This document shows, piece by piece, positions 10,669-29,149 of a DNA stretch of 64,000 nt. The stretch comes from Kaistia adipata DSM 17808 (GTDB lineage Bacteria; Pseudomonadota; Alphaproteobacteria; Rhizobiales; Kaistiaceae), in NCBI RefSeq assembly GCF_000423225.1, contig NZ_AUHO01000007.1, positions 434,001 to 498,000 of the forward strand, given 5' to 3'. The notes under the pieces were generated by a model. The model had not been told where the DNA came from. It searched no databases and saw only the letters and a program-made list of their open reading frames with translations. The translations under genes were made by a program, and so were the position numbers. Each line of letters begins with the position of its first letter. Position 1 is the first letter of the stretch.

Positions 10669-10814
10669 GAGGCGATCCTTGCGTGTGCGGGTGTTCGGGG
10701 ACGGCGCATTCGGCGGGTTGCGCCTCAGGAACGGGGATGGTGGCATCAACTTCTGTTCGGCGGAAGCCGCTGTCGCTAGACTGCCGGCACGGGGCCAAGT
10801 TTGGGAATGAAAAA

Positions 10815-11741
10815 GTGCGCAGCGGAAGCTTTCTCGGTAGGGCGGGCCTTGTCGGCCTGATGATGACGGCGGCGATGGCGGGGGCGCCGGGGCTGGCGGC
10901 CGCGCAGGAAGAGGCGGAGGAGGCGGCCAATCCCTATCCGACGACCGAATTCGCCGAAGGCGCCAAGGAGGCGACTGTCAGCGATTCGGGCATCACCGTG
11001 CGGGTTTTCCAGGAACGGCGCCCGGACATCGATCCCGACGATGACGTGCCGGTGTTCCAGATCACGGTGGACGGCAAGATGGTGCTGGAGCATGTCGGGT
11101 CCGCCTCCGGCATTTCGGTTCCCGGCATGAGCGCCTCGATCGCCGAGATCGATCCGACCAACGACAGCAAGGAAGTCTATCTGAGCAACTACACCGGCGG
11201 CGCGCATTGCTGCTCGGAGGTCGTGATTGCCGAGAAGACGCCGGCGGGCTGGGTGGCGGTGGAGGTCGGCGCCTTCGACGGCGACGGCGATTTCCTGCAG
11301 GACCTCACCGGCGACGGGGTGGCCGAGATCGTCACGGTCGACAACCGCTTCCTCTACACCTTCGATTGCTATGCCTGCAGCGCCGCGCCGCTGGTCATCC
11401 GCACCGTGCGCGACGGCAAGGTCGTCGACATCACGACGGAATCGCGTTTCGCCAAGGCGCACCGCGAATGGCTGAAGCAACTCGAGGAAGGCGCCGATCC
11501 CGACGAGCGCTGGAAGTCGCCCGGCTTCCTGGCCGGCTGGGTGGCGCAGAGCGTTCGCGCCGGCGAAGGACCGCAGGCCTTCGCGGCGGTCGTGAACAAG
11601 TGGGATCTGAAGACGGATGACGGCGAGGAGGTCTGCCTGACCGGCGGCGACGTCGACAGCTGCGCCAAGGGCCAGCTCAAGGTTTTGAAATTCCCCGACC
11701 GGTTGAAGCTGTTCCTCGACCAGAACGGCTATAAGTTCTGA
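10815..11741 (+). CDS. secreted protein of unknown function with FG-GAP/VCBS-like segment
   Basis: A 308-residue protein read from a GTG (10815) preceded by a GGGA stretch. This start gives a clean signal peptide, MRSGSFLGRAGLVGLMMTAAMAGAPGLAAAQ, with cleavage near AAA-QE. The mature region has a short acidic linker, then a segment resembling a single FG-GAP/VCBS blade (FDGDGDFLQDLTGDGVAEIVTVDNRFLYTF). Two cysteine groups, GGAHCCSEV and FDCYACSAAP, plus EVCLTGGDVDSCAK near the C-terminus, suggest disulfide bonding in the periplasm. I do not recognise a named family. It is divergent from the ThDP enzyme and followed by another small secreted protein gene about 105 bp downstream on the same strand. 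Confidence 0.7.
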   Translation: MRSGSFLGRAGLVGLMMTAAMAGAPGLAAAQEEAEEAANPYPTTEFAEGAKEATVSDSGITVRVFQERRPDIDPDDDVPVFQITVDGKMVLEHVGSASGISVPGMSASIAEIDPTNDSKEVYLSNYTGGAHCCSEVVIAEKTPAGWVAVEVGAFDGDGDFLQDLTGDGVAEIVTVDNRFLYTFDCYACSAAPLVIRTVRDGKVVDITTESRFAKAHREWLKQLEEGADPDERWKSPGFLAGWVAQSVRAGEGPQAFAAVVNKWDLKTDDGEEVCLTGGDVDSCAKGQLKVLKFPDRLKLFLDQNGYKF

Positions 11742-12239: not shown

Positions 12240-14675
12240 TCAGCGATAGGTCGCGCGCAGGTGGTGGACGGTGAGGTCCGCCGCGGTCGGCAGGCGGTGG
12301 CCCGCCTCCGCCTTGAAAGCGACGCTGCGCGGTTCGCCCGGCAGCAGCAGGAAGCTCGCATCGTCGAAATGGCCGGGAATGCCCTCGGCTTCGGCGCGAA
12401 CGTGGAAGGCCGGCGCGTCGGTGGAAAGCGTGAAGCGCCCGGCGCCGTCGTCGCGCACCGTGACCGTGGCGGGCCGCAGCTCGAACCGTTTCGGCACGTC
12501 GGGGAAGACGACGATCTGCCGCTCGGGCGCGGCGACGCCGTCGACGCTGGCGTCGATGACGTGGAAGCGGTCCTGCGCCGGGGCGGCCGTGATCGCCAGG
12601 ACTTCGATCGCGCGGTCGGGCGGCACGCTCATGCGCGCGGCGTGCTCGTCGATCAGCGTGCCGTCGAGATCGAAGCTTCGCAGTCGCGTCTCGATCGTCA
12701 CGGCGCGATGGCGGTCGTTGATCGCCCGCACGACGAGCTTGCCGTCGTCGAGACGGGCGGCGAGAGCCACCGGATCGAAGAAGCGCTTGGCGTGATAGTG
12801 CAGCGTCTTCCAGGCGAGCGAGTGGTCGATCGACGACCAGGAGACGGCGGGCCAGACGTCGTTCAGTTGCCAGTAGAGCGCGCCCATCGAGTGCGGCTTC
12901 AGGCTGCGCCAGTAGCGCACGGCCGTCTCGATCGCCAGTGCCTGCTGCAATTGCGACAGGTAGACGAAGCCCTCGAAATCGCCCGGTACGCGGAAATAGC
13001 GCGCCATGGTGTCGATGATGCGCGAATTGCCGGCGCCGTCGCGCTGGTGGAACTCCATCACCGGGGAGGTGGCGTTCCAGTTCTCCGGCTCGGCGAAGGC
13101 GCGGATGCCGGTCATGGACGGGAAGGACTGGAAGCCGAACTCGGAGCAGAAGCGCGGCTTCACCGTGTAGTAGTGCTCGAAATTCTTGTTCGAGTGCCAG
13201 ACGTCCCAGAAGTGCAGGTCGCCGGAGCGGTCGTCGTGCCAGGCGTCGCCATAGTCCATGTCGCCGTTGCAGGGGCTCGACGGCCAGAAGCGCCGGTCGG
13301 GATCGGTGTCCTGCACCGCCTTGTCGATGACGCGGTTGAAGCGGTCGTAGTTGACGAGGTAGCGGTCGCGGTTGTTGCGCGAGATCTCGAACCAGTTGAG
13401 CGAGCCGATCACCTCGTTGTCGCCGCACCAGAGCGCGATCGACGGACGGCTGGAGAGGCGTTTGATCTGGTAGCGCAGCTCGGCGTCGATCTCGGCCAGG
13501 AAGTCCGGCGTCGAGGGATATTGCGAGCAGGAGAACATCATGTCCTGCCAGACCAGCAGGCCGAGCCGGTCGCAGGCGTCGTAGAAGGCGTCGAACTCGT
13601 AGAAGCCGCCGCCCCAGACGCGGATCATGTTCATGTTCGCCTCGACGGCGGCGGAGAGCAGCGCGTCGATGCGCTCATGCGTGATCGCGCCGGGCAGGGC
13701 GTCGGCGGGGATCCAGTTGGCGCCCTTGGCGAAGATGTCGATGTCGTTGACGCGGAAGAACATCGAGGCGCCGACCTCGTCCTTCTCCGTGACCACCTCC
13801 AGCGTGCGAAAACCGACGCGGCGGCGCGCGGTGTCACCGGGGATGGAGACGACGGCGTCGTAGAGCGGCTGCTTGCCGTGGCCGGCCGGCCACCAGAGAT
13901 CGGGCTTGCCGATGTCGAGCGCGATCTCGACCTTGCCGCCATGTTCGGCCGAGACTTTCACCGTGGCGGTGATGCTCTTGCCGGCGAGGTCGACGGTCAC
14001 CGGGACGGTGACGTCGGCCGGCGCGAAAAGCTCGATCGCGGCGATCGCGGTCACCGTGCCGTCGGCATGGTGGCGCTGGCGGATCTGCACCGCCTCGATG
14101 CGTGCCGCTTCGTAGAAGTGCAGGATCGGCGCGGCGTAGAGGCCGGCGACCATCAGGCAGGGCCCCCAGTCCCAGCCGCCATGGCATTGCGGCTTGCGGA
14201 TCATGTTCAAGTCGGCGACGCGGTTGTTCGAGACGCTCCAGGGAATTGGAAAGGGCTGGCGCGCGGCGCGGGTCGCCGCCTCGGCGCCGGCGGGCGCGAA
14301 GCGGATGCGGATCTCGTTCTCTCCGGCGACGAGCGCCCCAGTCACGTCGATCCGGTGGCGGAGGAAGCAGGAACCGAGCGTCGCGATCGTTGTGCCGTTC
14401 AGCACGATCTCGGCGAAGGTATCGACGAATTCGAGCTCCAGCACGGCCCAGCGGCCGGCGAGGTCGGCGGCGGCGACGTGGAACCGACGGACGATTTCCC
14501 AGTCGGTCTCGCCGACCCACTGCATGTCGGCCTCGTTGGTGCCGACATAGGGGCTGCCGATCCGGCCGGCGGCGACGAGGGCCGAATGCACGTCGCCGGG
14601 AACCTTGAAGGGCACCGGCGCATCCAACGCCGTGTTCGAGAGCGTCCAGGAACCGGCGAGGGAATGTTTCGACAT
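12240..14675 (-). CDS. beta-mannosidase, glycoside hydrolase family 2
   Basis: Exo-acting enzyme that releases beta-linked mannose from the non-reducing end of manno-oligosaccharides. The 811-residue protein has the GH2 order: jelly-roll N-terminal domain ([28 protein letters not shown]), immunoglobulin-like domains, and TIM barrel with the proton donor in WCGDNEVIG (Glu421) and the nucleophile in [13 protein letters not shown] (Glu512). The motif [31 protein letters not shown]-like stretch (N-M-I-R-V-W-G-G-G) is typical of mannosidases rather than beta-galactosidases. No signal peptide is seen, so it is probably cytoplasmic. Start at 14675 ([10 protein letters not shown]) rather than 14822, which would add 49 non-conserved residues. 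Divergent from transaldolase. Confidence 0.9.
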
Positions 14676-14874
14676 TGTCAGGACCTTTGGCTGCGTGTCG
14701 GCGGGAACGATGGCCCGTCGCGTTTCGGAGCGGAAGGCGAACCGTCGAAAAGCAGATTTACCCGTTTGTTTTCGACAGGCGAAGATAATTTCCAGCTTCC
14801 ATTTGTCGGCCGGGATGCTCATATGCCAGGTACAAACGTGCGAATGCGCGGCAGTCAGATTGGAGGAGTGTCCG

Positions 14875-15846: not shown

Positions 15847-15871
15847 TCGGCACCCCGCTTTCGACTTCGAG

Positions 15872-15906
15872 CCGGCCGCCCGCCCCTTCGGGCGGCCGGT
15901 TTTTTT
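15872..15906 (+). terminator. intrinsic terminator after transaldolase
   Basis: Perfect 10-bp stem CCGGCCGCCC (15872-15881) with GGGCGGCCGG (15890-15899), followed by seven T. Confidence 0.93.
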
Positions 15907-16075
15907 GTGCGTCGCGCATGGCCGAATCGTTGCCGCTCAAGGGGCCAGGGGCTTCAATATTTTTTGCGTGCAGTGTGTCGACAAATGATCCACAGTGCGT
16001 CGCGGGCTTGCGCAAAGGGTTTCCCAGACGTGCCGGGGAACGCGGTCCGCGCCGATCGCACGAGGAACGATCACC

Positions 16076-18004
16076 ATGCCGGATAGCCTGACGACGACCG
16101 CGCCGCGCCGCCTGAACCCGGTGCCGCATACGCGCGTGACCTTCCATGCGGGCTTTTGGGCCGAGCGCACGCGGGTCAACCGCGAGGTCACCATCCCGAC
16201 CCAGTTCCAGCGGCTGGAGGAGGAGGGCTTCATCGAGGTGCTCGACGTCGACCTGCCGCCGAAGCCGCTGGTCCGGCCGATCAACGAATACGGCCTGTCG
16301 ATGCAGATGTTCTTCGATTCCGACTTCGGCAAATGGATCGAGGCGGCGAGCTACAGCCTCGCCACCCACCCTGATCCGGCGATCGAGGCGAAGATCGATT
16401 TCCTGGTCGAGAAGCTCGATCACGCCCAGCTCGCCGACGGCTATCTCAATTCCTGGTTCATCCGCCGCGATCCGGAGAAGCGCTGGACCAATCTGCGCGA
16501 CTGGCACGAGATGTACTCGATGGGGCATCTCGTCGAGGGCGCCGTCGCCTATTTCCAGGCGACGGGAAAGCGCCGCTTCCTCGACGTGATGATCCGCTGC
16601 GTCGACCATATCGCCAGCCGCTTCGGTCGCGAGCCGGGCAAGCTCCGCGGCTATGACGCGCATGAGGAGATCGAGCTGGCGCTGGTGAAACTCTTCCGCG
16701 CGACGGGCGAGCCCCGTTTCCTCGATCTCGCCCGCTATTTCATCGACGAGCGCGGCACGCAGGATCCGCATTTCTTCGACGAGGAGGCGAGGATCCACCC
16801 GGGCGGCAAGCCGTTCAATTTCGGTACTTACGAATACAGTCAGTCGCACAGGCCGGTGCGCGAGCAGGACCAGGTCGTCGGCCATGCCGTGCGCGCCATG
16901 TATCTCTACAGTGCCATGGCCGACCTCGCCGCCGAGGATGGCGACACCGCGCTGAAGGCGGCGCTCGACAAGCTCTGGAAGCATCTGACCGGCCGCCAGC
17001 TCTATGTCACCGGCGGCATGGGCCCGGCGGTCGAGAACGAGGGCTTCACCCGAGCCTTCGACCTGCCGAACGAGACCGCCTATGCCGAGACCTGCGCCGC
17101 CGTCTCTCTGGTGTTCTGGGCGCATCGCATGGCGGCGATCGACCTCGACGCGCGCTATGCCGACCACATGGAACTCGCGCTCCACAATGGCGCGCTCTCC
17201 GGCGTCTCGCTGGCCGGCGATCGCTATTTCTACGAAAACCCGCTCGAGAGCCACGGCCAGCACCGGCGCTGGCTCTGGCACTATTGCCCCTGCTGCCCGA
17301 CCAATCTCGCCCGCCTGGTCGCCTCGCTCGGCGGCTATATCGCGAGCCATGACGACGAGAATGTCGCGATCCACCTCTATGCCGCTTCGACGATCGACTT
17401 CGATGTCGCCGGCAGGGCGCTGCGCCTGACCCAGCAGACGGCCTATCCCTGGGATGGCGATATCCGCATCACGGTTGGTGCGCCCGAGCCGGTGCCAGCG
17501 ACGCTCTGGCTCCGCATCCCCGGCTGGTGCCGTAAGGCGGCCGTGACCGTCAACGGCGAATCCGCCGATGTGGCCGGCGCGACCCGCAAGGGCTATTGCG
17601 GCATCAACCGGCGCTGGGAGGAGGGCGACGAGATCCGCCTCGCGCTCGACATGCCGGTCGAGCGGCTTCGCGCTCATCCCGATGTCGGCATGGACGCCGA
17701 TCGTGTCGCGCTCCGGCGCGGGCCGGTGGTCTATTGCGTCGAGGAGACCGACAATCCCGCGCCGCCGCAGCATATGCGCCTGCTCGGGGAGGCGGCCGAG
17801 GTGCGCGATGCCCCCGACCTGCTCGGCGGCGTCGTGACGCTCGCCGTTCCCGCGACGATCGACCAGACGGCGGATTGGCGGGACACGCTCTACCGTCCCG
17901 AGCCGGCCGAGACCGTCCGGGGCACCTTGACCGCGATCCCCTATTTCGCCTGGGCCAATCGCGAGCCGGGCGCCATGCAGGTCTGGTTGCGCGCCGGGCG
18001 CTGA
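16076..18004 (+). CDS. beta-L-arabinofuranosidase, glycoside hydrolase family 127 (DUF1680)
   Basis: Family GH127 enzymes of the HypBA1 type hydrolyse beta-L-arabinofuranosyl links, notably those attached to hydroxyproline in plant extensins. The 642-residue protein keeps the whole active site: Glu338 and Cys340 in YAETCAAVS, and Cys404, Cys406 and Cys407 in HYCPCCPTNLARL; in the characterised enzyme Glu338, Cys340 and the CC pair bind zinc and the first Cys of the pair is the nucleophile. The glycines and aromatic residues of the (alpha/alpha)6 barrel are present (NSWFIRRDPEKRWTNLRDWHEMYSMGHL region). No signal peptide, so cytoplasmic. ATG at 16076 (MPDSLTTTAPRRLNPVP). Downstream genes deal with hydroxyproline, which strengthens the assignment. 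Confidence 0.9.
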   Translation: MPDSLTTTAPRRLNPVPHTRVTFHAGFWAERTRVNREVTIPTQFQRLEEEGFIEVLDVDLPPKPLVRPINEYGLSMQMFFDSDFGKWIEAASYSLATHPDPAIEAKIDFLVEKLDHAQLADGYLNSWFIRRDPEKRWTNLRDWHEMYSMGHLVEGAVAYFQATGKRRFLDVMIRCVDHIASRFGREPGKLRGYDAHEEIELALVKLFRATGEPRFLDLARYFIDERGTQDPHFFDEEARIHPGGKPFNFGTYEYSQSHRPVREQDQVVGHAVRAMYLYSAMADLAAEDGDTALKAALDKLWKHLTGRQLYVTGGMGPAVENEGFTRAFDLPNETAYAETCAAVSLVFWAHRMAAIDLDARYADHMELALHNGALSGVSLAGDRYFYENPLESHGQHRRWLWHYCPCCPTNLARLVASLGGYIASHDDENVAIHLYAASTIDFDVAGRALRLTQQTAYPWDGDIRITVGAPEPVPATLWLRIPGWCRKAAVTVNGESADVAGATRKGYCGINRRWEEGDEIRLALDMPVERLRAHPDVGMDADRVALRRGPVVYCVEETDNPAPPQHMRLLGEAAEVRDAPDLLGGVVTLAVPATIDQTADWRDTLYRPEPAETVRGTLTAIPYFAWANREPGAMQVWLRAGR

Positions 18005-18013
18005 AGCGAGTAG

Positions 18014-18047
18014 TGCAGGGCCGTGCCGGTCGCGCGCTTGGCCCTGC
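18014..18047 (+). terminator. hairpin after the GH127 gene
   Basis: An eight-base stem, GCAGGGCC (18015-18022) with GGCCCTGC (18040-18047), sits ten bases after the GH127 stop. There is a long loop and no T run, so partial attenuation between GH127 and the oxidase gene is more likely than full termination. Confidence 0.35.
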
Positions 18048-18119
18048 GCAAGTCACCTCGGCCGTGCTACGCATCGGCCTGCCATCGGGAAGGCTGCGGG
18101 GGCAGTTCGGAGAAGCTGA

Positions 18120-19364
18120 ATGCGTGTCGGAATCGTCGGGGCGGGGATCGTCGGAGTCGCGACCGCGCATGCGCTGCTGGACGAAGGGCACGAGGTCGAT
18201 CTGATCGACCGCGAGGGCATCGCGGCCGGGACCTCGGCCGGCAATGCCGGCTGGATCGCCCATCTCGACATCATGCCGCTCGCTTCGCCCAAGGTCTGGC
18301 GCAACCTGCCACGCTGGGCCTTCGATCCGCTCGGGCCCCTCGCCATCCGGCCGAGCTACCTGCCGAGACTGGCGCCCTGGCTCGCCCGCTTCGTCGCGGC
18401 CAGCCAGCCTTCCCGCATCGAGGCATCCGTCCGGGCGATCACCAGCCTGAACGGCATGGCGCTCGCCGCCTGGGAGCGGCGGCTGGAAGCGCTTGGCCTC
18501 CGCCATCACCTGCGCGAGCGCGGCCTGCTGTCGGTTTGGGCGGATGAGCGCGCCTTTCGCGCGACACTCCCGATGATCGAGCGGCAGCGCGGGCTCGGCA
18601 CCCCGGTCGAGACGCTCGACGCCGTGGCGCTCCGGGCGCTCGAGCCGGCGCTCGGGCCCCGCGCGGTCGCCGGCGCGCTCTATCCGACCGGCAAGCATGT
18701 CTCCGACCCGCTCGACCTGACCCGCGCCCTCGGCCTGGCGGCGCTCGATCGCGGCGCGCAATTGCGCGGCTTCGAGATCCTCGCGATCCAGGAGCGGGGA
18801 GGCGAGGTCGCGATCCGCACCTCGCTCGACACGCTGGCGCTCTATGACCGGATCGTCGTCGCCGCCGGCGCCTGGTCGAAGCCGCTGGCCGCCGCGCTCG
18901 GCGACGCCGTGCCGCTCGATACCGAGCGCGGCTACAACGTCACTTTGCCTTCGGGCCGCCTTGGGTTGACCCGGCCGATCATGTTCGAGGGCGAGGGCTT
19001 CGTCACGACGCCGCTCGACAGCGGTGACCGTGTCGGCGGCAGCGTCGAGTTCGCCGGCCTCGAGGCCGCGCCCAACTTCAAGCGGGTCGACGCGATCCTG
19101 GGTCGGCTGCGGCGTTTCCTGCCCGAGGCGGATCTATCCGGCGGCACGCGCTGGATGGGCTTCCGTCCCTCGATCCCGGATTCGTTGCCGGTCATCGGCC
19201 GCGCCAGCCGCAACCCGAACGTCGTCTACGCCTTCGGCCATGCCCATCACGGCCTGACCCAGGCGGCGGCGACGGCCGAGCTGGTCGCCGCGCTCGTCGC
19301 CGATCGCCGGCCGCCGATCGATCTCGCCCCCTATTCTCCCGAACGCTTTGGAAAGAGGCTCTGA
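18120..19364 (+). CDS. FAD-dependent D-amino-acid oxidoreductase, probable cis-4-hydroxy-D-proline oxidase
   Basis: DadA-family flavoprotein of 414 residues. The N-terminus has the Rossmann FAD motif VGIVGAGIVGVATAHALLDEGHEVDLIDRE, followed by GTSAGNAGWI and, near the C-terminus, GFRPSIPDSLPVIGRASRNPNVVYAFGHAHHGLTQAAATAELV, the closing FAD-binding block. DadA-like enzymes oxidise D-amino acids to imino acids and pass electrons to the respiratory chain. The very next gene, two bases away, is a 4-hydroxyproline 2-epimerase, so the likely substrate is cis-4-hydroxy-D-proline, as for HypO of rhizobia. The general D-amino-acid dehydrogenase role remains an alternative. Confidence 0.82.
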   Translation: MRVGIVGAGIVGVATAHALLDEGHEVDLIDREGIAAGTSAGNAGWIAHLDIMPLASPKVWRNLPRWAFDPLGPLAIRPSYLPRLAPWLARFVAASQPSRIEASVRAITSLNGMALAAWERRLEALGLRHHLRERGLLSVWADERAFRATLPMIERQRGLGTPVETLDAVALRALEPALGPRAVAGALYPTGKHVSDPLDLTRALGLAALDRGAQLRGFEILAIQERGGEVAIRTSLDTLALYDRIVVAAGAWSKPLAAALGDAVPLDTERGYNVTLPSGRLGLTRPIMFEGEGFVTTPLDSGDRVGGSVEFAGLEAAPNFKRVDAILGRLRRFLPEADLSGGTRWMGFRPSIPDSLPVIGRASRNPNVVYAFGHAHHGLTQAAATAELVAALVADRRPPIDLAPYSPERFGKRL

Positions 19365-19366
19365 GC

Positions 19367-20383
19367 ATGGCGCGTCACACCTTCGTCTGCATCGACGGCC
19401 ACACCTGCGGCAATCCGGTCCGCGTCGTCACCGGCGGCTCGATCCCGGTGCTGAAGGGCGCGACGATGTTCGACAAGCGCCAGCATTTCCTGGCCGAGTT
19501 CGACTGGATCCGGAAGTCGCTCTGCTTGGAGCCGCGTGGCCATGACATGATGTCGGGCTCGATCCTCTACCCGCCGTCGAGCGACGCCTATGACGTGGCG
19601 ATCCTGTTCATCGAGACCTCGGGCTGCCTGCCGATGTGCGGCCACGGCACGATCGGCACGGTGACGACGATCATCGAGCACGGCCTGGTGACGCCGAAGA
19701 CGCCCGGCCTCTTGCGGCTGGAGACGCCGGCCGGCCTCGTCGAGGCGCGCTATGTCCAGAACGGCCCCTATGTCGACAGCGTGACGCTGACCAACGTGCC
19801 GTCCTTCCTGCTCGGCCGCGACTACGAGGTCGAGGTCGACGGCATCGGCGCGCTCAAGGTCGATGTCGCCTATGGCGGCAATTTCTACGCGATCGTCGAG
19901 CCGCAGGAGAACTATGCGGATCTCTCGGATCTCGAGCCGTCCGACATCGTCCGCCTGTCGCCAAAACTGCGCGCCGCTTTCAACGCGCGCCATGCGATCG
20001 TCCACCCCACGAACCCGGCGCTGAACCGGCTGACCCATGTGCTGTGGACCGGAAAGCCCAAGAACGCCGGCTCCTCGGCCCGCAATGCCGTGTTCTACGG
20101 CGACAAGGCGATCGACCGCTCGCCCTGTGGCACCGGCACCTCGGCACGCGTCGCGCAGCTTCATGCGACCGGCCGGCTCCAGGAGGGCGAGGCCTTTGTG
20201 CATGAGAGCATTATCGGCTCGACCTTCACCGGCCGCGTCGCCGGCACCACGACGGTTGGCGGCCTGCCGGCGATCATCCCGACCATCGAGGGCTGGGCGC
20301 GCGTCACCGGCTACAACACCATCTTCGTCGACGACCGCGATCCGTTCTGGGCCGGCTTTCAGGTGGTCGACGGGGAGGGGTAG
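19367..20383 (+). CDS. 4-hydroxyproline 2-epimerase (proline racemase family)
   Basis: Inverts C2 of trans-4-hydroxy-L-proline to give cis-4-hydroxy-D-proline, the first step of bacterial hydroxyproline use. The 338-residue protein keeps both catalytic cysteines, Cys91 in PMCGHGTIG and Cys254 in DRSPCGTGTSARVA. Two cysteines exclude the related trans-3-hydroxyproline dehydratase, which has Thr at the second position. HTCGNPVRVVTGG near the N-terminus is the family hallmark. The start codon follows the oxidase stop by two bases, so the two proteins are almost certainly co-translated. Proline racemase itself is possible from motifs alone, but the neighbour favours hydroxyproline. Confidence 0.88.
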   Translation: MARHTFVCIDGHTCGNPVRVVTGGSIPVLKGATMFDKRQHFLAEFDWIRKSLCLEPRGHDMMSGSILYPPSSDAYDVAILFIETSGCLPMCGHGTIGTVTTIIEHGLVTPKTPGLLRLETPAGLVEARYVQNGPYVDSVTLTNVPSFLLGRDYEVEVDGIGALKVDVAYGGNFYAIVEPQENYADLSDLEPSDIVRLSPKLRAAFNARHAIVHPTNPALNRLTHVLWTGKPKNAGSSARNAVFYGDKAIDRSPCGTGTSARVAQLHATGRLQEGEAFVHESIIGSTFTGRVAGTTTVGGLPAIIPTIEGWARVTGYNTIFVDDRDPFWAGFQVVDGEG

Positions 20384-20488
20384 GACGCGACCCTGCAAAG
20401 AAGTGTGAGGTCGGCTGCATCGGGCTCGTAGCGAAGGCTGCAAGGCTCGGCTAGAACGGCTTACCCTCCGCCAATCCGGATTGCTGCC

Positions 20489-21520
20489 ATGCGTGCTCTC
20501 GTCCTTGAAGAAAAGCTCAAGCTCTCGCTCCGCGACATTGACCTGCCGCTCGAAGTCGGCCCGCGCGATGTCCGCATCGCCATCCACACGGTCGGCGTCT
20601 GCGGCTCGGACGTGCACTATTACACCCATGGCGCGATCGGCCCATTCATCGTCAAGGCGCCGATGGTGCTCGGTCACGAGGCGTCCGGCACGGTGCTCGA
20701 GATCGGCTCCGAGGTTCGGAATCTCAAGGTAGGCGACCGCGTCTGCATGGAGCCCGGCATCCCGGATCTCAGCTCGAAGGCCTCGAAGCTCGGCATCTAC
20801 AATGTCGATCCGAGCGTCACCTTCTGGGCGACGCCGCCGGTGCATGGCTGCCTGACGCCGGAAGTCGTCTTCCCCGCCGCCTTTACCTACAAGCTGCCCG
20901 ACAATGTCTCCTTTGCCGAGGGCGCGATGGTCGAGCCCTTCGCCATCGGCATGCAGGCGGCGACCAAGGCGAAGATCGTCCCCGGCGATACGGCGCTGGT
21001 GATCGGTGCCGGCCCGATCGGCATCATGGTGGCGCTGGCGGCGCTCGCCGGCGGCTGCAGCCGCGTCTACATCTCCGATCTCGTCAACGAAAAGCTCGCC
21101 ATCGCCGGCCGCTATGACGGTATCGTTCCGGTCAACATCCGCGAGACGGACCTGAAGGCGAAGATCGCCGAGGAGACGGAGAACTGGGGCGTCGACATCG
21201 TGTTCGAGGCATCCGGTTCCCCGCGCGCCTATGACGGCATCTTCAACTATGTCCGTCCCGGCGGCACCATCGTCTTTGTCGGCCTGCCGGTCGAGCCGAT
21301 CGCCCTCGACATCGTCTCGGCCTCGGCCAAGGAAGTGAAGATGGAGACGGTGTTCCGCTACGCCAACGTGTTCGACCGCGCGCTGGCGCTGATCGCCTCC
21401 GGCAAGGTCGATCTCGCGCCGCTGATCACCGGCACCTACGATTTCGAGGATTCGATCGCCGCCTTCGAGCGCGCCGCCTCCGCCAACCCGAACGACGTCA
21501 AGCTGCAGATCACGCTCTGA
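20489..21520 (+). CDS. zinc-dependent polyol dehydrogenase, xylitol/sorbitol dehydrogenase type
   Basis: MDR-family NAD-dependent dehydrogenase of 343 residues. The catalytic zinc site is present: Cys38 in [13 protein letters not shown], the GHEASGTV histidine/glutamate, and the [10 protein letters not shown] block. The Rossmann motif is [16 protein letters not shown]. The usual four-cysteine structural zinc lobe is missing; in its place is [25 protein letters not shown], as in rhizobial and acetic-acid-bacterial xylitol dehydrogenases. It would oxidise a pentitol or hexitol to a ketose in the cytoplasm. It lies about 105 bp downstream of the epimerase gene and may have its own promoter. Exact polyol is not predictable. 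Confidence 0.85.
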
Positions 21521-21524
21521 ACTT

Positions 21525-21645
21525 CACCTCTCCCATGGGAGAGGTCGGAGCGAAGCCCCGGTGAGGGGGTAGGGCATTCTTCGGCGAGGCCGTAAACCCT
21601 CACCCGCCGCACTCCGTGCGTCGACCTCTCCCTCAGGGAGAGGTG
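21525..21645. repeat. 121-bp inverted-repeat intergenic element (CTCTCCC type)
   Basis: The ends are inverted copies of each other: the left end CACCTCTCCC...GGGAGAGGTCG and the right end CGACCTCTCCC...GGGAGAGGTG. Inside are GGTGAGGGGGT and its inverse ACCCTCACCC. Such elements are common, non-coding and dispersed in Alphaproteobacteria. Parts of the same word recur at 22750-22782 and 42281-42314. Confidence 0.75.
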
Positions 21646-21660
21646 AGAGGCGGAAATAGC

Positions 21661-21690
21661 AAAAGGCCCCGGAGCGCTCCGGGGCCTTTT
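21661..21690. terminator. perfect bidirectional terminator
   Basis: A fully symmetrical 30-bp palindrome: four A, GGCCCCGGAGC, its complement, and four T. It stands between two convergent genes (polyol dehydrogenase and PRC-barrel protein) and so can stop transcription from both sides. Confidence 0.92.
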
Positions 21691-21709
21691 CCGTTCGGAG
21701 GGGACTGGA

Positions 21710-22078
21710 TCACATCATCCAGTAGGGCGGCATGCCGTAATAGTCGTGCACGCGCTTCTCGTAGTCGCGGTCGCCCCAGGCCGGCTCGTCGCCCTCGTCA
21801 TAGGTCGGGCCGCCTTCGAGCTGCTCCTTGGTGAGGCCGACGACATAGCCGCCCTGGGCGGTGTCATACTTCAGGGCATTCCACGGTAGCGGATGGTATT
21901 TCTCGCCGATGCCGAGGAACCCGCCGAAGGACATGATCGCATAGGCGACGCGACCGGTAATCTTGTCGATCATGACGTCATGAATATCGCCAAGACGTTC
22001 GCCGGCTGTATTGTAGATGGCGGTGCCATCGACCTTGTCGGCGCCGATCAGCGAGTTGGAAATGTGGACCTGCTGCAT
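21710..22078 (-). CDS. PRC-barrel domain protein
   Basis: A 122-residue protein with a PRC-barrel fold over residues about 8-80 (LIGADKVDGTAIYNTAGERLGDIHDVMIDKITGRVAYAIMSFGGFLGIGEKYHPLPWNALKYD), followed by a short acidic and aromatic tail (DYEKRVHDYYGMPPYWMM). Such proteins are widespread in Hyphomicrobiales and are often stress or photosynthesis-apparatus relatives of unknown function. The start at 22078 has a strong ribosome site (GGAGGAAAACG before ATG). It is a single gene bounded by the strong palindromic terminator and the MaoC gene. Confidence 0.88.
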   Translation of the reverse strand: MQQVHISNSLIGADKVDGTAIYNTAGERLGDIHDVMIDKITGRVAYAIMSFGGFLGIGEKYHPLPWNALKYDTAQGGYVVGLTKEQLEGGPTYDEGDEPAWGDRDYEKRVHDYYGMPPYWMM

Positions 22079-22160: not shown

Positions 22161-22607
22161 TCACGCCGGCTTCTTCGCGACGAGGTAGATGTGCTCGCAG
22201 GCGAGCACCGTCTCGCCGGTCTGCTTGGTGACCGTGACGAGTTCCGAGACGATGCCGTGCGTGGCGCGCTTCGGATGGTCGCGCTTGTCGACGATCTTGG
22301 CCTCGACCGTGATGGTGTCGTTGATGAAGACGGGCTTCACGAACCGCACCTTGTCGTAGCCATAGGACATGGCGTGCGGGTTGATCGTCGTCGCCGTCAT
22401 GCCGACCGCGACCGACAGGATCAGCGTGCCGTGGGCGACGCGCTGCTTGAAGTCCTGCGTCGCGCACCATTCGGCGTCCATGTGGTGCGGGAAGAAGTCG
22501 CCCGTCTGCCCGGCATGGATGACGATGTCGGCCTCCGTGATCGTCCGCCCCATCGTGTGACGGGAGAAGCCGATCTCGTAGTCCTCGAAATATTGCTCGA
22601 CGATCAT
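22161..22607 (-). CDS. MaoC-family acyl-CoA hydratase/dehydratase
   Basis: Single hot-dog-fold protein of 148 residues. The hydratase motif D-x-x-P-x-H is intact: [12 protein letters not shown], with Asp37 and His42, followed by [13 protein letters not shown], and [30 protein letters not shown]. Family members add water to 2-enoyl-CoA or dehydrate 3-hydroxyacyl-CoA. It is the last gene of the leftward sugar operon, after the SDR gene, with 189 bp between them holding inverted repeats. The AGAGGAAACCT ribosome site favours ATG at 22607. Its presence in a sugar-acid pathway is unusual, since no CoA ester is expected in the classical route. Confidence 0.82.
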
Positions 22608-22749
22608 AGGTTTCCTCTTTCGCGGCCGGACGCCGCGCGCCACCGGGAAGGCTCCGTCGACCGGAGCGCCGGGCGGACAGCTCCGGCTGGATGGATGCCC
22701 GCCTTGGCGGGGATGACGGCGGGGGCAGGGGCCTCCGCCGGTCGGAGTT

Positions 22750-22782
22750 CCTCTCCCGCCACCATCGGGGCTGCGGGAGAGG
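22750..22782. repeat. CTCTCCC-type hairpin in the MaoC-SDR gap
   Basis: Ten-base perfect stem CCTCTCCCGC (22750-22759) with GCGGGAGAGG (22773-22782). The adjacent stretch 22695-22730 contains a fragment (GGATG...GGGGATGACGG) of the GGATCC-type repeat found at 30974 and 35799. The 189-bp gap is thus built from repeat debris. Confidence 0.65.
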
Positions 22783-22796
22783 GCAGGGCGTGGGCC

Positions 22797-23531
22797 TTAG
22801 TTGACCCAGCCGCCGTCGATGATGTGCATCTGGCCGGTCGTGTAGGTGGCCGTCGCCAGGTAGATGGCGAGGTCGGCGATCTCTTCCGGCTGGCCGATGC
22901 GGCCGATCGGCTGGCGGGCGATGAACGCCTTGCGGGCGGCCTCGTAGTCGCCCTGGTCGCGCAGGCGCTGCTGCAGCGAGGGGCTCTCGACGGTGCCGGG
23001 ACAGATGCCGTTGCAGCGAATGCCCTTGGTGACGTAGTCGGCGGCGATCGACTTGGTCAGGCCGACGGTGGCCGCCTTGGTCACGGCATAGGCGAAGCGG
23101 TTCGGCACGCCCTTGATCGAGCCAGCGACGGAGCAGATGTTGACGATCGAGCCATCCTTCTGCGCCAGCATGCCCGGCAGCGCGGCCGAGATCGTGCGCC
23201 ACATCGACTTGACGTTCAAATCGTAGGCGAAGTCGAGATCGGCTTCGGTGGCCTCTTCCAGCGTGCCGGCATGGACGATGCCGGCGCAGTTGAACAGCAC
23301 GTCGATGGTGCCGATCTCGGCGATCAGCGCCTTGACGTCGTCATTCGACAGGACGTTGAGCTTGCGCGTGGTGATGTTCTTGACGCCGTCGAGCTCGGCG
23401 AGCTTCGCCTCGTTGACGTCGGTCGCCCAGACGATCGCGCCCTCGGCCGCCGCCTGCTCGGCGATCGCCCGTCCGATACCCTGCGCCGCCGCCGTGACCA
23501 GCGCGACCTTGCCTGCGAGCTTACCGCTCAT
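22797..23531 (-). CDS. SDR oxidoreductase, probable 2-keto-3-deoxy-L-fuconate (or -rhamnonate) 4-dehydrogenase
   Basis: Classical short-chain dehydrogenase of 244 residues: cofactor motif VTAAAQGIGRAIA, NAG at 81-84 (FNCAGIVHAGT), Asn106, and the Ser134-Tyr148-Lys152 catalytic set (ICSVAGS, FAYAVTKAA). The acidic Asp38 after the second strand (WATDVNEAKL) indicates NAD. Its layout, including IRCNGICPGTVESPSLQQRL and the C-terminal MHIIDGGWVN, closely resembles the group that contains human DHRS6/BDH2 and the Xanthomonas 2-keto-3-deoxy-L-fuconate dehydrogenase. It follows the sugar-acid dehydratase gene by 34 bp, which fits oxidation of the dehydratase product at C4. The specific substrate is inferred. 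Confidence 0.85.
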   Translation of the reverse strand: MSGKLAGKVALVTAAAQGIGRAIAEQAAAEGAIVWATDVNEAKLAELDGVKNITTRKLNVLSNDDVKALIAEIGTIDVLFNCAGIVHAGTLEEATEADLDFAYDLNVKSMWRTISAALPGMLAQKDGSIVNICSVAGSIKGVPNRFAYAVTKAATVGLTKSIAADYVTKGIRCNGICPGTVESPSLQQRLRDQGDYEAARKAFIARQPIGRIGQPEEIADLAIYLATATYTTGQMHIIDGGWVN

Positions 23532-23565
23532 TGTCGTCAGTCCCTTCAGTTCGTCGTCAGAACGA

Positions 23566-24675
23566 TCAATTCTTGGTCAGGAACGTCGAGCCCTCGACCG
23601 TCTGCCGGCCGATGGCGTCGAAATCCCACGAGATGCCGAGGCCCGCCTCGGGACTCGGAACGGCATAGCCGTCCGCGATCGTCATACCCTTTGTCGTCAG
23701 GCTGTCCAATTGCGGGATGTATTCGACCCAGCGCGCATTCGGCACGGCGGCGCAGAGCGCCACGTGCAGTTCCATCAGGAAATGCGGGCAGACGACGACG
23801 TTGAAGGTCTCGGCCAGGTGCGCGACCTTGAGCCAGGGCGTGATGCCGCCGATGCGGGCGACGTCGACCTGGACGATCGAGCAGGCGCGGCGCTGCAGGT
23901 AGTCGCGGAAATGCAGGCTCGAATAGAGGCTTTCGCCGACAGCGATCGGGATCGAGGTCGATTCACAGAGCCGAATGTGGCCGTCGACGTCGTCGGCGGT
24001 CAGCGGCTCCTCGAGCCAGCCGATATCGGCCGCCTCGTAGTGGCGCGCGCGGCGGATCGCCTCGTCGACCGAGAAGGCCTGGTTGGCGTCGGTGAAGAGC
24101 TCGAAGCCGGGGCCGACGGCCTCGCGCACCGCGGTCAGGCGGGCGACGTCCTCGTGGATCGGCCGGCCGACCTTCATCTTGGCGCCGCCGAAGCCGTTTT
24201 CCTTGGCGCGCAGCGTGTCCTCGATGATCGATTCGACTGGCAAATGCAGCCAGCCGCCCTCGGTGGTGTAGAGGCGGATCTTCTCCTGCGCGCCGCCGGC
24301 GAGGATATGCACCGGCAGGTTGGCCTTGCGCGCCTTCAGGTCCCAGAGCGCCGTGTCGATGGCGGCGAGCGCCAGCGAGGTGATGGCGCCGACCGAGGTG
24401 GCGTGCGTCATGAACAGGAGGTCGCGCCAGATCTGCTCGATCATGCCGGCCTCGCGGCCGATCAGGGCCGGCGCCAGCGTCTTCTCGATCAGCGACATGA
24501 TCGCCGGCCCGCCGGTGCCGATCGTGTAGCTGTAGCCGGTGCCGACGACGCCGTCGGAATCGGTGATGCGGATGATCGGCGTTTCCTGGCTGACGAAGGA
24601 CTGGATCGCGTCGACCCGCTTCACCTTCGGCTTCAGGTCGACCATCAGGCCTTCGACACGAACGATCTTTGCCAT
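23566..24675 (-). CDS. enolase-superfamily sugar acid dehydratase (mandelate racemase subgroup)
   Basis: A 369-residue enolase-superfamily member. Visible catalytic residues are the KxK base (Lys166, Lys168 in GGAKMKVG), the Mg ligands Asp196 (FTDANQAF), Glu222 (WLEEPL) and Glu248 (VGESLYS), Asp271 (VQVDVARIGG) and the general acid/base His298 with Glu302 (CPHFLMELH). The Asp271-His298 dyad with KxK marks the mandelate racemase subgroup, most of whose members dehydrate aldonic or aldaric acids to 2-keto-3-deoxy acids in the cytoplasm. It sits between the transporter ATPase gene and the SDR gene. L-fuconate, L-rhamnonate or a related 6-deoxy acid is the inferred substrate. Confidence 0.86.
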   Translation of the reverse strand: MAKIVRVEGLMVDLKPKVKRVDAIQSFVSQETPIIRITDSDGVVGTGYSYTIGTGGPAIMSLIEKTLAPALIGREAGMIEQIWRDLLFMTHATSVGAITSLALAAIDTALWDLKARKANLPVHILAGGAQEKIRLYTTEGGWLHLPVESIIEDTLRAKENGFGGAKMKVGRPIHEDVARLTAVREAVGPGFELFTDANQAFSVDEAIRRARHYEAADIGWLEEPLTADDVDGHIRLCESTSIPIAVGESLYSSLHFRDYLQRRACSIVQVDVARIGGITPWLKVAHLAETFNVVVCPHFLMELHVALCAAVPNARWVEYIPQLDSLTTKGMTIADGYAVPSPEAGLGISWDFDAIGRQTVEGSTFLTKN

Positions 24676-24698
24676 TGTTTCCCCCGGGGGCTCTCGTT

Positions 24699-25802
<1,104 letters not shown>

Positions 25803-25808
25803 ATCAAA

Positions 25809-26654
25809 TTATCCCTTGACGCCGCCGAAGGTGAGACCGGCGATCAGATGTTTCTGCACGATGAAGGTCAGCAGGAGCGCCGGCACGATGATGATCACGG
25901 CCATGGCGCACATGCCGGTCCAGTCGACCGTGAACTGTGCGGTGAAATCCATCAGCCCGACGGGCAGCGTCTTCGACGCGGTGGTCCGCGTGAGCTGAGA
26001 GGCGAGGGCGAACTCGTTCCACGAGGTGAGGAAGGCGAAGATGCCGGCCGACGCGATGCCCGACTTGGCGAGCGGGAACTCGATCTTCCAGAACGCCTGC
26101 CAGCGGGTGCAGCCGTCGACCTGGGCCGCTTCCGAGAGCGAGAGCGGGATCTGCCGGAAGAAGCCGTCGATCAGCCAGATCGTGAACGGGATGTTGAGCG
26201 CCAGATAGACCAGGATGACGCCGAAATCGGTGTCGATCAGGCCGACGCGGCTCCAGATCATGAAGACCGGCAGCGACAGCGAGATGCCCGGCACCGTGCG
26301 CGACAGCATCAGCCAGAGGAAGGCGACGTTCTTGCCCTTGAAGCGGTAGCGGGCGAAGGCGTAGCCGCCCATCATGCCGATCAGCAGCGCCAGGATCGTG
26401 CTCGTCACCGAGATGATCAGCGAGTTGACGAAATAGCGGACGACGGGGATGCCCTGCTGGTTCTCGGACATGCCGAGGATCGCGCGGAAATTGTCGAGCG
26501 TCCACCGCTCGGGGATCCAGACCGGGGGACGCGCCATCACCTCGACATTGTCGCGGAAGGCCGTCATCACGATCCAGAGGCCGGGCAGGCAGATGATCGT
26601 CATGACGACGAAGATGCCGAACCGGATCAGCCAGCGTTGCCAGGAACGTTCCAT
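25809..26654 (-). CDS. carbohydrate ABC transporter permease (MalG type)
   Basis: Inner-membrane permease of 281 residues with six predicted helices; the first is WLIRFGIFVVMTIICLPGLWIVMTAF. The EAA loop is SLSEAAQVDGCTRWQAFWKIEFPLAKSGIAS, which docks to the ATPase. It is the smaller, second membrane subunit of the CUT1-type sugar importer. The first permease gene ends one base upstream of its start, indicating translational coupling. Confidence 0.93.
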   Translation of the reverse strand: MERSWQRWLIRFGIFVVMTIICLPGLWIVMTAFRDNVEVMARPPVWIPERWTLDNFRAILGMSENQQGIPVVRYFVNSLIISVTSTILALLIGMMGGYAFARYRFKGKNVAFLWLMLSRTVPGISLSLPVFMIWSRVGLIDTDFGVILVYLALNIPFTIWLIDGFFRQIPLSLSEAAQVDGCTRWQAFWKIEFPLAKSGIASAGIFAFLTSWNEFALASQLTRTTASKTLPVGLMDFTAQFTVDWTGMCAMAVIIIVPALLLTFIVQKHLIAGLTFGGVKG

Positions 26655-26655
26655 A

Positions 26656-27558
26656 TCAGGCCACCCCGCCCATGGTCCGGCGCGCGGCCGCGAGTTTGCG
26701 GAAGAAATAGACGGTGAAATAGACCGACAGCAGGATCGAGGCGTAGGACATGGCGTTGGCCATGCCCATGCGGGCGTCCTGGTAGCCGGTGCGCGCGATC
26801 AGCGTCCAGAGCAGCTCCGTGCGTCCCGCCGGGCCGCCATTGGTCATGATCTTGACCATGTCGTAGGCGCGGGCGACGTCGAGCGAGCGGATCGCCATGG
26901 CGATGTAGACGAAGGGCATCAGGTAGGGCAGCGTGATGTGGCGGAACACCTGCCACGGATTGCAGCCGTCGACCTTCGCCGCCTCGATCGGATCGCGCGG
27001 CATCGCCATCAGGCCGGCCAGCAGCAGGATCGCGAAGATCGGCGTCGACATCCACACCTCGGCCATCAGGATGGCGAGGTTGGCGGTGACCGGATTGACC
27101 AGCCAGGGGATGGTGACGTCGGACCAGCCGAGCGACTGGATGGCGTTGTTCACCAGGCCGACATTGTCGTTGAAGATGTACTTGAACTGGAAGCCGACCA
27201 GGATCGGCGAGAACATCATCGGGAACATCATGATCGTCCGGATGATGCGCTGGCCGGCGGTCAGCTTGTCGATCAAGAGCGCGATGCCGAGACCGAGAAC
27301 CAGTTCCAGGTTGAGCGCGATCGTCAGGAAGACCAGCGTGCGGCCGAAGGCCCACCAGAAGTCAACGTCGGTGAGCAGGCGCTGATAGTTGCGCCAGCCG
27401 ACCCACTGCCAGAGCGAGGCGGGCTGCACCAGGCGATAGCCGGTGAAGCTCGTGTAGAGCGAGAACAGGAGCGGCAGCGCCACCACCAGCGCGATGATGA
27501 CGAAGGCCGGCATCAAGAGCAGGATCGGAGGCGAGAGCCGGCTTCGGAAGAAACGCAT
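26656..27558 (-). CDS. carbohydrate ABC transporter permease (MalF type)
   Basis: Inner-membrane permease of 300 residues with six predicted helices (first: ILLLMPAFVIIALVVALPLLFSLY) and the EAA loop PIEAAKVDGCNPWQVFRHITLPYLMP. The motif YTSFTGYRLVQP after the first helix is usual in MalF/UgpA-type subunits. It follows the binding-protein gene with a 175-bp gap that holds a stable hairpin, and it precedes the MalG-type gene by one base. Confidence 0.93.
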   Translation of the reverse strand: MRFFRSRLSPPILLLMPAFVIIALVVALPLLFSLYTSFTGYRLVQPASLWQWVGWRNYQRLLTDVDFWWAFGRTLVFLTIALNLELVLGLGIALLIDKLTAGQRIIRTIMMFPMMFSPILVGFQFKYIFNDNVGLVNNAIQSLGWSDVTIPWLVNPVTANLAILMAEVWMSTPIFAILLLAGLMAMPRDPIEAAKVDGCNPWQVFRHITLPYLMPFVYIAMAIRSLDVARAYDMVKIMTNGGPAGRTELLWTLIARTGYQDARMGMANAMSYASILLSVYFTVYFFRKLAAARRTMGGVA

Positions 27559-27689
27559 GAAGATGTTCCGTGAGCCGTTGTTTGGCTTGGACCCGGGGGA
27601 GGGCCGTCGGGTCCGGTCGTCTGGGCTTCGCGCCTCTTGCGGGCGAAGCGTGCGGCGGCGCGTGTCGGGGGAAACGTGCCAACGCGAAA

Positions 27690-27713
27690 CCCTCGCCCGC
27701 GAACGGGCGAGGG
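27690..27713 (-). terminator. intercistronic stem-loop between binding-protein and permease genes
   Basis: Perfect 10-bp stem CCCTCGCCCG (27690-27699) with CGGGCGAGGG (27704-27713), four-base loop, 20 bases past the binding-protein stop and with no T run. Stem-loops at this place in sugar ABC operons protect the binding-protein message and reduce transcripts for the permeases. Role inferred from position. Confidence 0.6.
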
Positions 27714-27733
27714 GATGGCTTGGGCGCAGGCGC

Positions 27734-29074: not shown

Positions 29075-29105
29075 GGTCGATTCCTCACCCCGGCGCCACG
29101 CCGAC

Positions 29106-29119: not shown

Positions 29120-29149
29120 CGCCTGACATTGTCCACCATTGAATGGAAT

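Follow-up and report, generated by a model that had tools for sequence, protein, structure and literature searches.

The GH127 gene in this stretch of DNA from a soil bacterium of the genus Kaistia is probably coupled in function to hydroxyproline catabolism. Within the window, the 64 kb stretch analyzed here, GH127, a hypO-like oxidase and a 4-hydroxyproline 2-epimerase constitute a single predicted operon of the Kaistia genome. We place at roughly 60% the probability that this GH127 belongs to a HypR-controlled branch serving plant hydroxyproline-rich glycoproteins, whichever of the proposed substrates it cuts. The genes, an operator core and its conservation, its recurrence across a GH127 clade and an unlinked HypD/HypR pair are read directly from sequence. 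All four genes named in an earlier sequence-only reading (GH127, oxidase, epimerase and polyol dehydrogenase) were confirmed by domain and structure matches.

Table 1. Features of the GH127 and hydroxyproline locus, in window coordinates.
Feature	Coordinates	Strand	Basis or remark
Terminator-like hairpin	15869..15902	+	between transaldolase and GH127 operon
Shorter terminator-like hairpin	15941-15955		upstream of GH127
Candidate HypR-type operator	15971..15988	.	palindromic core TGTCGACA at 15976-15983; motif score 20.0
Degenerate palindrome TTGCGCAAAGGGTTTCCCAG	16008..16027	.	judged by eye
GH127 β-L-arabinofuranosidase, predicted cytoplasmic, 642 aa	16076..18004	+	Pfam, PDB match, residues
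hypO-like FAD oxidase, D-hydroxyproline dehydrogenase candidate	18120..19364	+	Pfam, NCBIfam, pSymB comparison
4-hydroxyproline 2-epimerase (hypE/hypRE)	19367..20383	+	Pfam, NCBIfam, pSymB comparison, residues
Zinc polyol dehydrogenase	20489..21520	+	Pfam, PDB match

The HypE start lies 2 bases beyond the HypO stop, while gaps of 115 bp and 105 bp separate GH127 from HypO and HypE from the polyol dehydrogenase. A minus-strand terminator-like pattern precedes GH127 at 15990-16005; the pattern scan returned none between 16006 and 21750. No sigma-70-like promoter emerged upstream of GH127 or elsewhere in the stretch scanned. A tRNA-Cys call within the GH127 gene was regarded as a false positive.

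The GH127 product matches the catalytic, middle and C-terminal Pfam domains with 349.2, 88.8 and 82.9 bits (cut-offs 24.9, 24.2 and 23.7), and its nearest solved structure is the GH127 β-L-arabinofuranosidase 4qjy (637 bits, residues 102-666 aligned). The intact active site proposed earlier was borne out by alignment: Glu338, Cys340, Cys406 and Cys407, numbered from the ATG at 16076, correspond to the zinc-binding Glu and Cys residues, nucleophile included, of the ETC and CxCC motifs in 4qjy and in the Bifidobacterium enzyme 3wkw. The only NCBIfam match, aceric acid hydrolase, fell short of its cut-off (413.8 bits versus 950). By inspection, the N terminus carries no signal-peptide-like run. 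A Pfam scan of the 24 predicted proteins of 6568-35711 recognized no secreted protease and no GH121 or GH43 enzyme, and one further glycosidase, a GH2. Because the N terminus does not resemble a signal peptide and the surroundings hold no recognized secreted protease and only the GH2 gene, the earlier description of an extensin-dismantling module overreaches.

The comparison cluster on Sinorhizobium meliloti pSymB is unannotated in its record, and we take its genes, judged by position, to be hypR, hypD, hypH, hypMNPQ, hypO and hypRE. The product of the second gene of the operon has a DAO fold (208.2 bits, Pfam), resembles D-amino-acid dehydrogenases and matches the pSymB oxidase at 43%, making it a candidate D-hydroxyproline oxidase, HypO. 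HypE exceeds the cut-off of the NCBIfam 4-hydroxyproline epimerase model PRK13971 (559.2 bits versus 376) and matches pSymB HypRE at 64%. It is of the two-cysteine type (Cys91 and Cys254) and has the HypE-type pocket Ser63, His224 and Tyr244, as in pSymB HypRE; these positions were mapped by inspection, using residue classes from an excerpt of PMC4364671. Strains with insertions in pSymB hypRE did not grow on trans-4-hydroxy-L-proline, according to an excerpt of PMC12445080. The fourth gene encodes a zinc alcohol dehydrogenase (Pfam) with sorbitol dehydrogenase as its best PDB match (257 bits). It does follow the epimerase as proposed, but its membership in the module is doubtful: among 12 fetched loci of relatives carrying this epimerase, eight had the polyol dehydrogenase together with the downstream enolase-type cluster and the other four had neither within the stretch, and we therefore group it with that cluster. 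It is probably a neighbor outside the module, and it may be co-transcribed with the operon.

The operator motif was built from 16 sites at hypR, hypD and hypO promoters, with no GH127 site in the training set. Its top match in the window starts at 15971, before GH127, with a score of 20.0 versus 10.3 for the runner-up. Among simulated intergenic stretches, a score this high arose in 2 of 4000 of the region's own composition and in none of 4000 of window composition. The core TGTCGACA lies 92 bp upstream of the GH127 start; it also occurs upstream of GH127 in three further Kaistia genomes (G003, G004 and G006), in the pSymB hypR and hypD promoters and in the HypR-HypD intergenic region of the window genome. 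For the core by itself the expectation is 1.7 occurrences per 64 kb; the window holds two, one of them inside hypE. We consider the motif that bears it to be a putative operator to which HypR would bind. The degenerate palindrome TTGCGCAAAGGGTTTCCCAG is better kept as TTGAGAAAAGCTTTTCTCAG in K. granuli and by eye looks similar to palindromes that separate lacI from the GH127 operon in rhizobia; it is possibly a relict LacI operator.

Outside Kaistia, the window GH127 clusters with GH127 proteins of Rhizobium, Sinorhizobium sp. B11, Agrobacterium and Devosia (16 rows, 100/99). In all 15 sampled clade operons, eight of which (L231-L238) were fetched after the core was already known in the others, the core lay no more than 300 bp upstream of the SBP gene; it did so in none of 74 scorable controls. 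The promoters of the clade go back to a common ancestor, and with several near-duplicate loci the 15 amount to about seven distinct arrangements. With the full matrix at a score of at least 15, an upstream site was found in only 4 of the 15 operons, the one in L226 not at the core, compared with 3 of 80 controls; the core is common to the clade operons, its flanks are not. An X-Pro peptidase, an iminopeptidase-like hydrolase or a hyp gene accompanies GH127 in 14 of the 15 loci, while none of the 80 controls has any of these flank genes at 90 bits or more. In the fetched flanks, M24 X-Pro peptidases occur in nine loci, proline-iminopeptidase-like hydrolases in ten, HypR in five, Kaistia-type HypD in four and HypE in one; one locus (L234) holds a match to S. 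meliloti-type HypD at 72%. The core before GH127, its presence in the clade and not in the controls, and the recurrent hyp and X-Pro peptidase genes support the coupling of GH127 to hydroxyproline catabolism put forward in the earlier proposal.

The clade also bears on the substrate. Excerpts of PMC7263609 and PMC10850190 describe the GH127 enzyme HypBA1 as intracellular and as cutting imported β-Ara2 once GH121 has freed it, and assign Araf-β-Hyp activities to two GH146 enzymes. Membership in GH127 thus does not, on these accounts, imply cleavage of the Hyp-linked bond: the family named in the sequence-only reading is right, the HypBA1-type cleavage of Hyp-linked arabinose does not follow from it, and we think it rather unlikely that this GH127 cuts that bond directly. 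The same accounts favor a narrower version of the coupling, whose probability is part of that given above, with co-induction and separate substrates. GH127 would then cut free β-Ara2 derived from the same plant glycoproteins, as HypBA1 does in Bifidobacterium, and never the Hyp-linked bond; HypR would only report the presence of such glycoprotein. All 15 clade loci surround GH127 with their own sugar ABC importer and LacI regulator, which points to an oligosaccharide substrate, and a second GH127 of the window genome, on contig C5, lies beside an importer related to that of the clade (permeases 58-59%, SBP 39%, LacI 57%). However, window-type GH127 genes of Kaistia have no adjoining importer and sit in the hyp operon, and substrates bound to peptides are suggested by the peptide importers and X-Pro peptidases found around the clade; we judge this version rather unlikely. 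Action on another β-linked sugar, such as rhamnogalacturonan-II or arabinan side chains, would agree with the aceric acid hydrolase match, with 4qjy as nearest structure and with the α-L-rhamnosidase and α-L-fucosidase genes of R. leguminosarum-type loci; given the sub-cut-off score of that match and the hyp-gene and X-Pro peptidase surroundings of the clade, we judge it quite improbable.

Adjacency was rejected as the only evidence for coupling. Of 14 Kaistia genomes only five contain a window-type GH127, eight others have this HypE without it, and HypO and HypE were absent from the fetched flanks of all 77 non-Kaistia relatives in the first scan. In the window genome, G003 and G004, moreover, GH127 occupies the place that hypD holds in those eight genomes, and its closest kin outside Kaistia, in Rhizobiaceae and Devosia, are in many cases plasmid-borne. 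These observations would fit a horizontally acquired GH127 that was inserted between transaldolase and hyp genes in some Kaistia and is unrelated to hydroxyproline. Such a chance juxtaposition is unlikely in view of the conserved operator, the core and neighbor genes of the clade and a locus in another genus of the same family (G076), in which GH127, an ATPase and a HypD-like gene lie on one strand and HypO-HypE on the other. The fetched G076 stretch lacks TGTCGACA. Its locus was rejected as a full SBP-permease operon, the upstream genes being signal peptidase II, a SpoU methylase and a methyltransferase, and its HypD-like protein may instead act in arabinose oxidation as L-2-keto-3-deoxyarabonate dehydratase, an enzyme that PDB searches did not separate from HypD; the same doubt may apply, less strongly, to Kaistia-type HypD. 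In K. granuli (G006), a GntR gene whose product matches pSymB HypR at 54% is followed by GH127-HypD-HypO-HypE in one direction.

The sequence-only reading had noted that HypD and HypH are not at this place. This holds for the locus, whereas elsewhere in the genome a HypD is encoded on contig C4, adjoining HypR. It matches a pSymB DHDPS-family protein at 83% (E 3.5e-175), and the HypR matches that of pSymB at 70%. The same HypD matches 5czj with 579 bits, a PDB entry named dihydrodipicolinate synthase that we take to be S. meliloti HypD. With this S. meliloti-type HypD at hand, the idea of a pathway broken by hypD loss was rejected, and the two HypD types are exactly complementary across the 14 Kaistia genomes, with the local type in nine and the S. 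meliloti type in the other five, including the window genome. For hypH, no match to the pSymB-cluster aldehyde dehydrogenase was found in the window genome at E 1e-30, and of 24 aldehyde dehydrogenase matches, ten of which were scanned, a ketoglutarate-semialdehyde-dehydrogenase-like gene (C1:589807-591171) was best for two such models, with 537 and 522 bits (below the cut-offs of 770 and 750). The ABC importer beside the C4 HypD was considered as the GH127-clade importer; this was unsupported, with permeases matching at only 30-33% and no match to the R. johnstonii SBP at that locus at E 1e-15.

For the coupled pathway we infer the following scheme, from HypR binding at the core through each enzyme activity to the imported substrate. 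HypR would repress the GH127-HypO-HypE operon, with hydroxyproline as inducer. Fragments of plant hydroxyproline-rich glycoproteins, whether Hyp-O-arabinosides, short glycopeptides or free β-arabino-oligosaccharides, would be imported and stripped of β-L-arabinofuranose by the cytoplasmic GH127. HypE would convert the freed trans-4-hydroxy-L-proline to cis-4-hydroxy-D-proline, which HypO would oxidize; the unlinked HypD would deaminate the product to α-ketoglutarate semialdehyde, and an aldehyde dehydrogenase would yield α-ketoglutarate.

Hydroxyproline catabolism and β-arabinofuranose removal are each well described separately; a literature search at the level of listings returned no paper joining them in one regulon. 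Judging from related loci on plasmids, pairing GH127 with hyp genes may be a real strategy for feeding on plant cell-wall glycoproteins. If so, soil and nodule bacteria would gain a route to the carbon and nitrogen of extensin-like glycoproteins, a substrate class would be predicted for a GH127 subfamily, and the system would be a plant-side mirror of gammaproteobacterial HypR regulons that contain collagenases. Arabinosylated CLE signal peptides limit nodulation. A far-reaching reading, which we regard as improbable, is that Hyphomicrobiales possess a GH127 subfamily devoted to hydroxyproline-O-arabinosides within a HypR regulon that imports and dismantles arabinosylated Hyp peptides of the host plant. 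Such a regulon would comprise importers for sugars and for peptides, X-Pro peptidases, GH127 and HypE/O/D; on rhizobial plasmids its targets would perhaps include arabinosylated CLE peptides, which is speculation.

Compared with known systems, the genes of the window genome resemble the S. meliloti pSymB cluster in HypE, HypO, the unlinked HypD, HypR and the TGTCGACA promoter core, but have GH127 before hypO, with hypD and hypR elsewhere. The 4qjy enzyme, presumably from Geobacillus, has to our knowledge no link to hyp genes. With the HypAA/HypBA2/HypBA1 cluster of Bifidobacterium longum (GH43, GH121, GH127 and an ABC importer), Kaistia shares the GH127 family and its conserved Glu/Cys active site; the B. 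longum enzyme is intracellular in the excerpted accounts, and that of Kaistia is predicted to be cytoplasmic. In contrast to that cluster, no GH43, GH121 or importer adjoins the Kaistia GH127, whose proposed tie to hydroxyproline catabolism is not described in the excerpted Bifidobacterium accounts. HypR regulons of Alteromonadales and Aeromonas take in collagenases, proline dipeptidases or peptide permeases, according to an excerpt of PMC5343134. In them, as proposed for Kaistia, HypR also governs proline peptidases and the steps that set the substrate free; while their substrate is animal collagen, that proposed for Kaistia is a plant arabinosylated glycoprotein.

The four genes proposed by the sequence-only reading are real and their reading frames are open, in a genome assembly of 4.84 Mb on 12 contigs. 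GH127 is 88% identical to a Kaistia granuli DSM 23481 protein; its active-site region can be aligned with those of 4qjy and of 3wkw, an enzyme from Bifidobacterium, and it has the residues named earlier, Glu338, Cys340, Cys406 and Cys407 in its own numbering. By inspection, its N terminus MPDSLTTTAPRRLNPVPHTRVTF contains no hydrophobic run resembling a signal peptide. HypO, an FAD oxidase, and HypE, a 4-hydroxyproline 2-epimerase, are convincing assignments, given their families, their residues and their resemblance to the S. meliloti pSymB hyp cluster. Terminator-like patterns lie ahead of GH127 and none was found in 16006-21750, while no sigma-70-like promoter was found in the stretch scanned at the locus; a single transcript is plausible for the predicted operon. 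The GH2-family gene upstream is divergent from a transaldolase gene and is the upstream neighbour in most Kaistia loci compared. Downstream is a cluster that resembles a unit for importing and catabolising sugar acids, with a divergent IclR regulator; it is largely kept in several Kaistia.

Features at the GH127 locus and related positions (window coordinates unless a contig or locus is named)
Feature	Position	Strand	Remark
GH2-family gene	12240-14822		Ig-like mannosidase domain
Best motif match	15971-15988		score 20.0
Palindromic 8-base core	15976-15983		
Possible relict palindrome	16008-16027		judged by eye
GH127	16076-18004	+	all three GH127 Pfam domains
HypO	18120-19364	+	
HypE	19367-20383	+	
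Polyol dehydrogenase	20489-21520	+	
Putative sugar-acid unit	22161-29185	-	SBP (substrate-binding protein), two permeases, ATPase, enolase-superfamily protein, SDR, MaoC-like protein
IclR regulator	29235-30017		
S. meliloti-type HypD	own genome, C4 28613-29560		579 bits to 5czj
Semialdehyde dehydrogenase-like candidate	own genome, C1:589807-591171		under curated cut-offs
Importer after HypD	own genome, L185:6125-9289		SBP, two permeases
Importer after HypD	G003 (Kaistia), L187:8439-11654		SBP, two permeases
HypD and HypE	G010 (Kaistia), L130, C1:527000-545000, about 9669-11731		no HypO between
Dehydratase-like gene	G139, L222:7705-8733		70% to pSymB
Motif site	Agrobacterium sp. AGB01, L082:5564		score 26.9
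Peptide-type SBP gene	Agrobacterium sp. AGB01, L082, 3722-5464		

Taken alone, the adjacency of GH127 and hyp genes is weak evidence. Among the best 80 of 128 GH127 loci from a contig search, the 77 outside Kaistia had no HypO or HypE match (E 1e-15) in flanks of up to 10 kb, some contigs being shorter; a sugar-ABC permease match was near GH127 in 75 of these 77 and just upstream in 74. Within Kaistia, HypE orthologues occur in 13 of 14 genomes (93-96% identity, 100% in the window's own genome) and window-type GH127 in five (G000, the window's genome, with G003, G004, G006 and G008), that of G008 being cut by a contig end and its locus genes spread over separate short contigs. The eight Kaistia having HypE without window-type GH127 share the order transaldolase-HypD-HypO-HypE, except G010, where HypO is missing between HypD and HypE at the locus and a GntR gene precedes HypD. 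K. granuli (G006) carries transaldolase, a divergent GntR gene, GH127, HypD, HypO and HypE, and in G000, G003 and G004 GH127 occupies the HypD position. The second GH127 of the window's genome, on contig C5 (L144), belongs to a different clade and lies with LacI, SBP and permease genes; its relatives occur in 13 of 14 Kaistia genomes, as fragments in G008.

Evidence beyond gene order comes from a palindrome, TGTCGACA, which is present in the pSymB hypR and hypD promoters, in the HypR-HypD intergenic region of the window's genome and in seven of nine Kaistia-type hypD promoters, G006 and G010 having TGTACACA instead. We built a matrix from 16 such sites, none from GH127, which themselves score 18.0-29.7. 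Its top match in the 64-kb window lies ahead of GH127, the next scoring 10.3. When 4000 stretches were simulated for each of two base compositions, 2 and 0 of them scored as high as the top match. In itself the 8-base core is not rare in the window (1.7 expected, 2 seen). GH127 promoters score 21.9 in G003, 21.9 in G004 and 16.3 in G006, and two sites near the Agrobacterium AGB01 operon 26.9 and 18.8; the former is upstream of a peptide-type SBP gene adjoining the GH127 operon. From its position, the core is a putative binding site of HypR, the GntR regulator. The palindrome at 16008-16027 may be a relict of LacI-type control persisting in Kaistia.

In trees, the window-type GH127 groups with Rhizobium, Sinorhizobium sp. 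B11, Agrobacterium AGB01 and Devosia proteins (16 rows, support 100/99), apart from the C5 Kaistia GH127. We compared 15 non-Kaistia clade loci (L082 and 14 plasmid regions, hand-picked from 40 of 267 matching records; 12 placed in the tree, L235, L237 and L238 assigned by identity) with 80 controls (L006-L081, L144, L221, L223 and L224) that are 44-55% identical to the window GH127, 23 of them placed in a tree, where these fall outside the clade. The core lies no more than 300 bp ahead of the SBP gene in 15/15 clade loci versus 0/74 controls, six controls having no SBP match. It had already been seen in L082 and L225-L230 before the comparison; the later-fetched L231-L238 have it in 8/8, several being near-copies of earlier loci. 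With the full matrix (score at least 15), an upstream site is found in only 4/15 clade operons, that of L226 lying off the core, versus 3/80 controls. This result counts against the link, as does the small number of distinct arrangements, about seven, among the 15 loci; what the clade shares is the core and not its flanks.

Neighbouring genes, counted at 90 bits with flanks of 10-12 kb in the test set and, for most controls, of at most 10 kb, also separate the groups. An M24 X-Pro peptidase (9/15), a proline-iminopeptidase-like hydrolase (10/15), a peptide SBP (3/15), HypR (5/15), Kaistia-type HypD (4/15) and HypE (1/15) occur in clade loci, versus 0/80 controls for each; a peptidase-type gene, a hyp gene or both are present in 14 of 15, and the exception, AGB01, has a peptide SBP. 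In R. johnstonii, two R. leguminosarum strains, Sinorhizobium sp. B11 and Devosia neptuniae, the core is also present in the gap that separates the X-Pro peptidase gene from the divergent gene beside it. R. johnstonii pRL10 clusters the GH127 operon with a gene resembling HypD (53% to the Kaistia type), a GntR gene (61% to that of K. granuli, 60% to HypR of pSymB), the hydrolase gene and the X-Pro peptidase gene, all adjacent. In L235, a Devosia sp. A8/3-2 plasmid, the GH127, SBP and aminopeptidase P genes are each annotated as several fragments, reflecting either decay or sequencing errors.

In 150 genomes sampled evenly across the order, 14 PF07944 matches exceeded 200 bits, in 13 genomes, and among the matches listed at least two have a proline-racemase-family gene no more than 10 kb away, namely those of the window and of G076, which represents another genus of Kaistiaceae. 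In G076 one strand carries GH127, an ATPase gene and a HypD-like gene (48% to the Kaistia type) and the opposite strand HypO-HypE; a regulator-like gene separates the two groups. The G076 GH127 sits on a long branch apart from the window clade, TGTCGACA is absent from the stretch, and the case is unrelated to the window clade. Separately, in G139 a trans-3-hydroxyproline dehydratase-like gene and a GH127 operon belonging to another clade are about 20 kb apart.

HypD and HypH, the deaminase and aldehyde dehydrogenase of the later steps, had been noted as missing, which holds at the locus; genome-wide, an S. meliloti-type HypD is present on contig C4, divergent from a GntR gene 70% identical to pSymB HypR, and pSymB-type HypH has no match at E 1e-30. 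Such HypH matches occur in 5 of 14 Kaistia, and the window's genome offers a ketoglutarate-semialdehyde-dehydrogenase-like candidate. Kaistia-type HypD (77-100%) is in exactly nine of 14 Kaistia genomes and the S. meliloti type (E limit 1e-40) in exactly the remaining five, including the window's and G008 (92% complete, 720 contigs); this complementary spread, in counts uncorrected for relatedness, suggests that the two types replace each other.

The earlier proposal was right in that sugar removal and hydroxyproline use look coupled, on grounds better than adjacency. Most likely, the predicted operon would, under the control of HypR, let the cell use fragments of hydroxyproline-rich glycoproteins from plants. 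The literature titles and abstract openings searched yielded no statement coupling GH127 or β-L-arabinofuranosidase to hydroxyproline catabolism, which does not prove absence. According to excerpts of two papers, the Bifidobacterium GH127 HypBA1 is intracellular and acts on β-Ara2, and Araf-β-Hyp is acted on by two GH146 enzymes (PMC7263609, PMC10850190); action on the Hyp-linked bond therefore cannot be assumed for the window GH127. In the window's genome and G003, the S. meliloti-type HypD is followed in the same direction by a sugar-type ABC importer, whose substrate could be a Hyp glycoside, whereas the pSymB hyp cluster, its gene names assigned by position, has an amino-acid-type importer.
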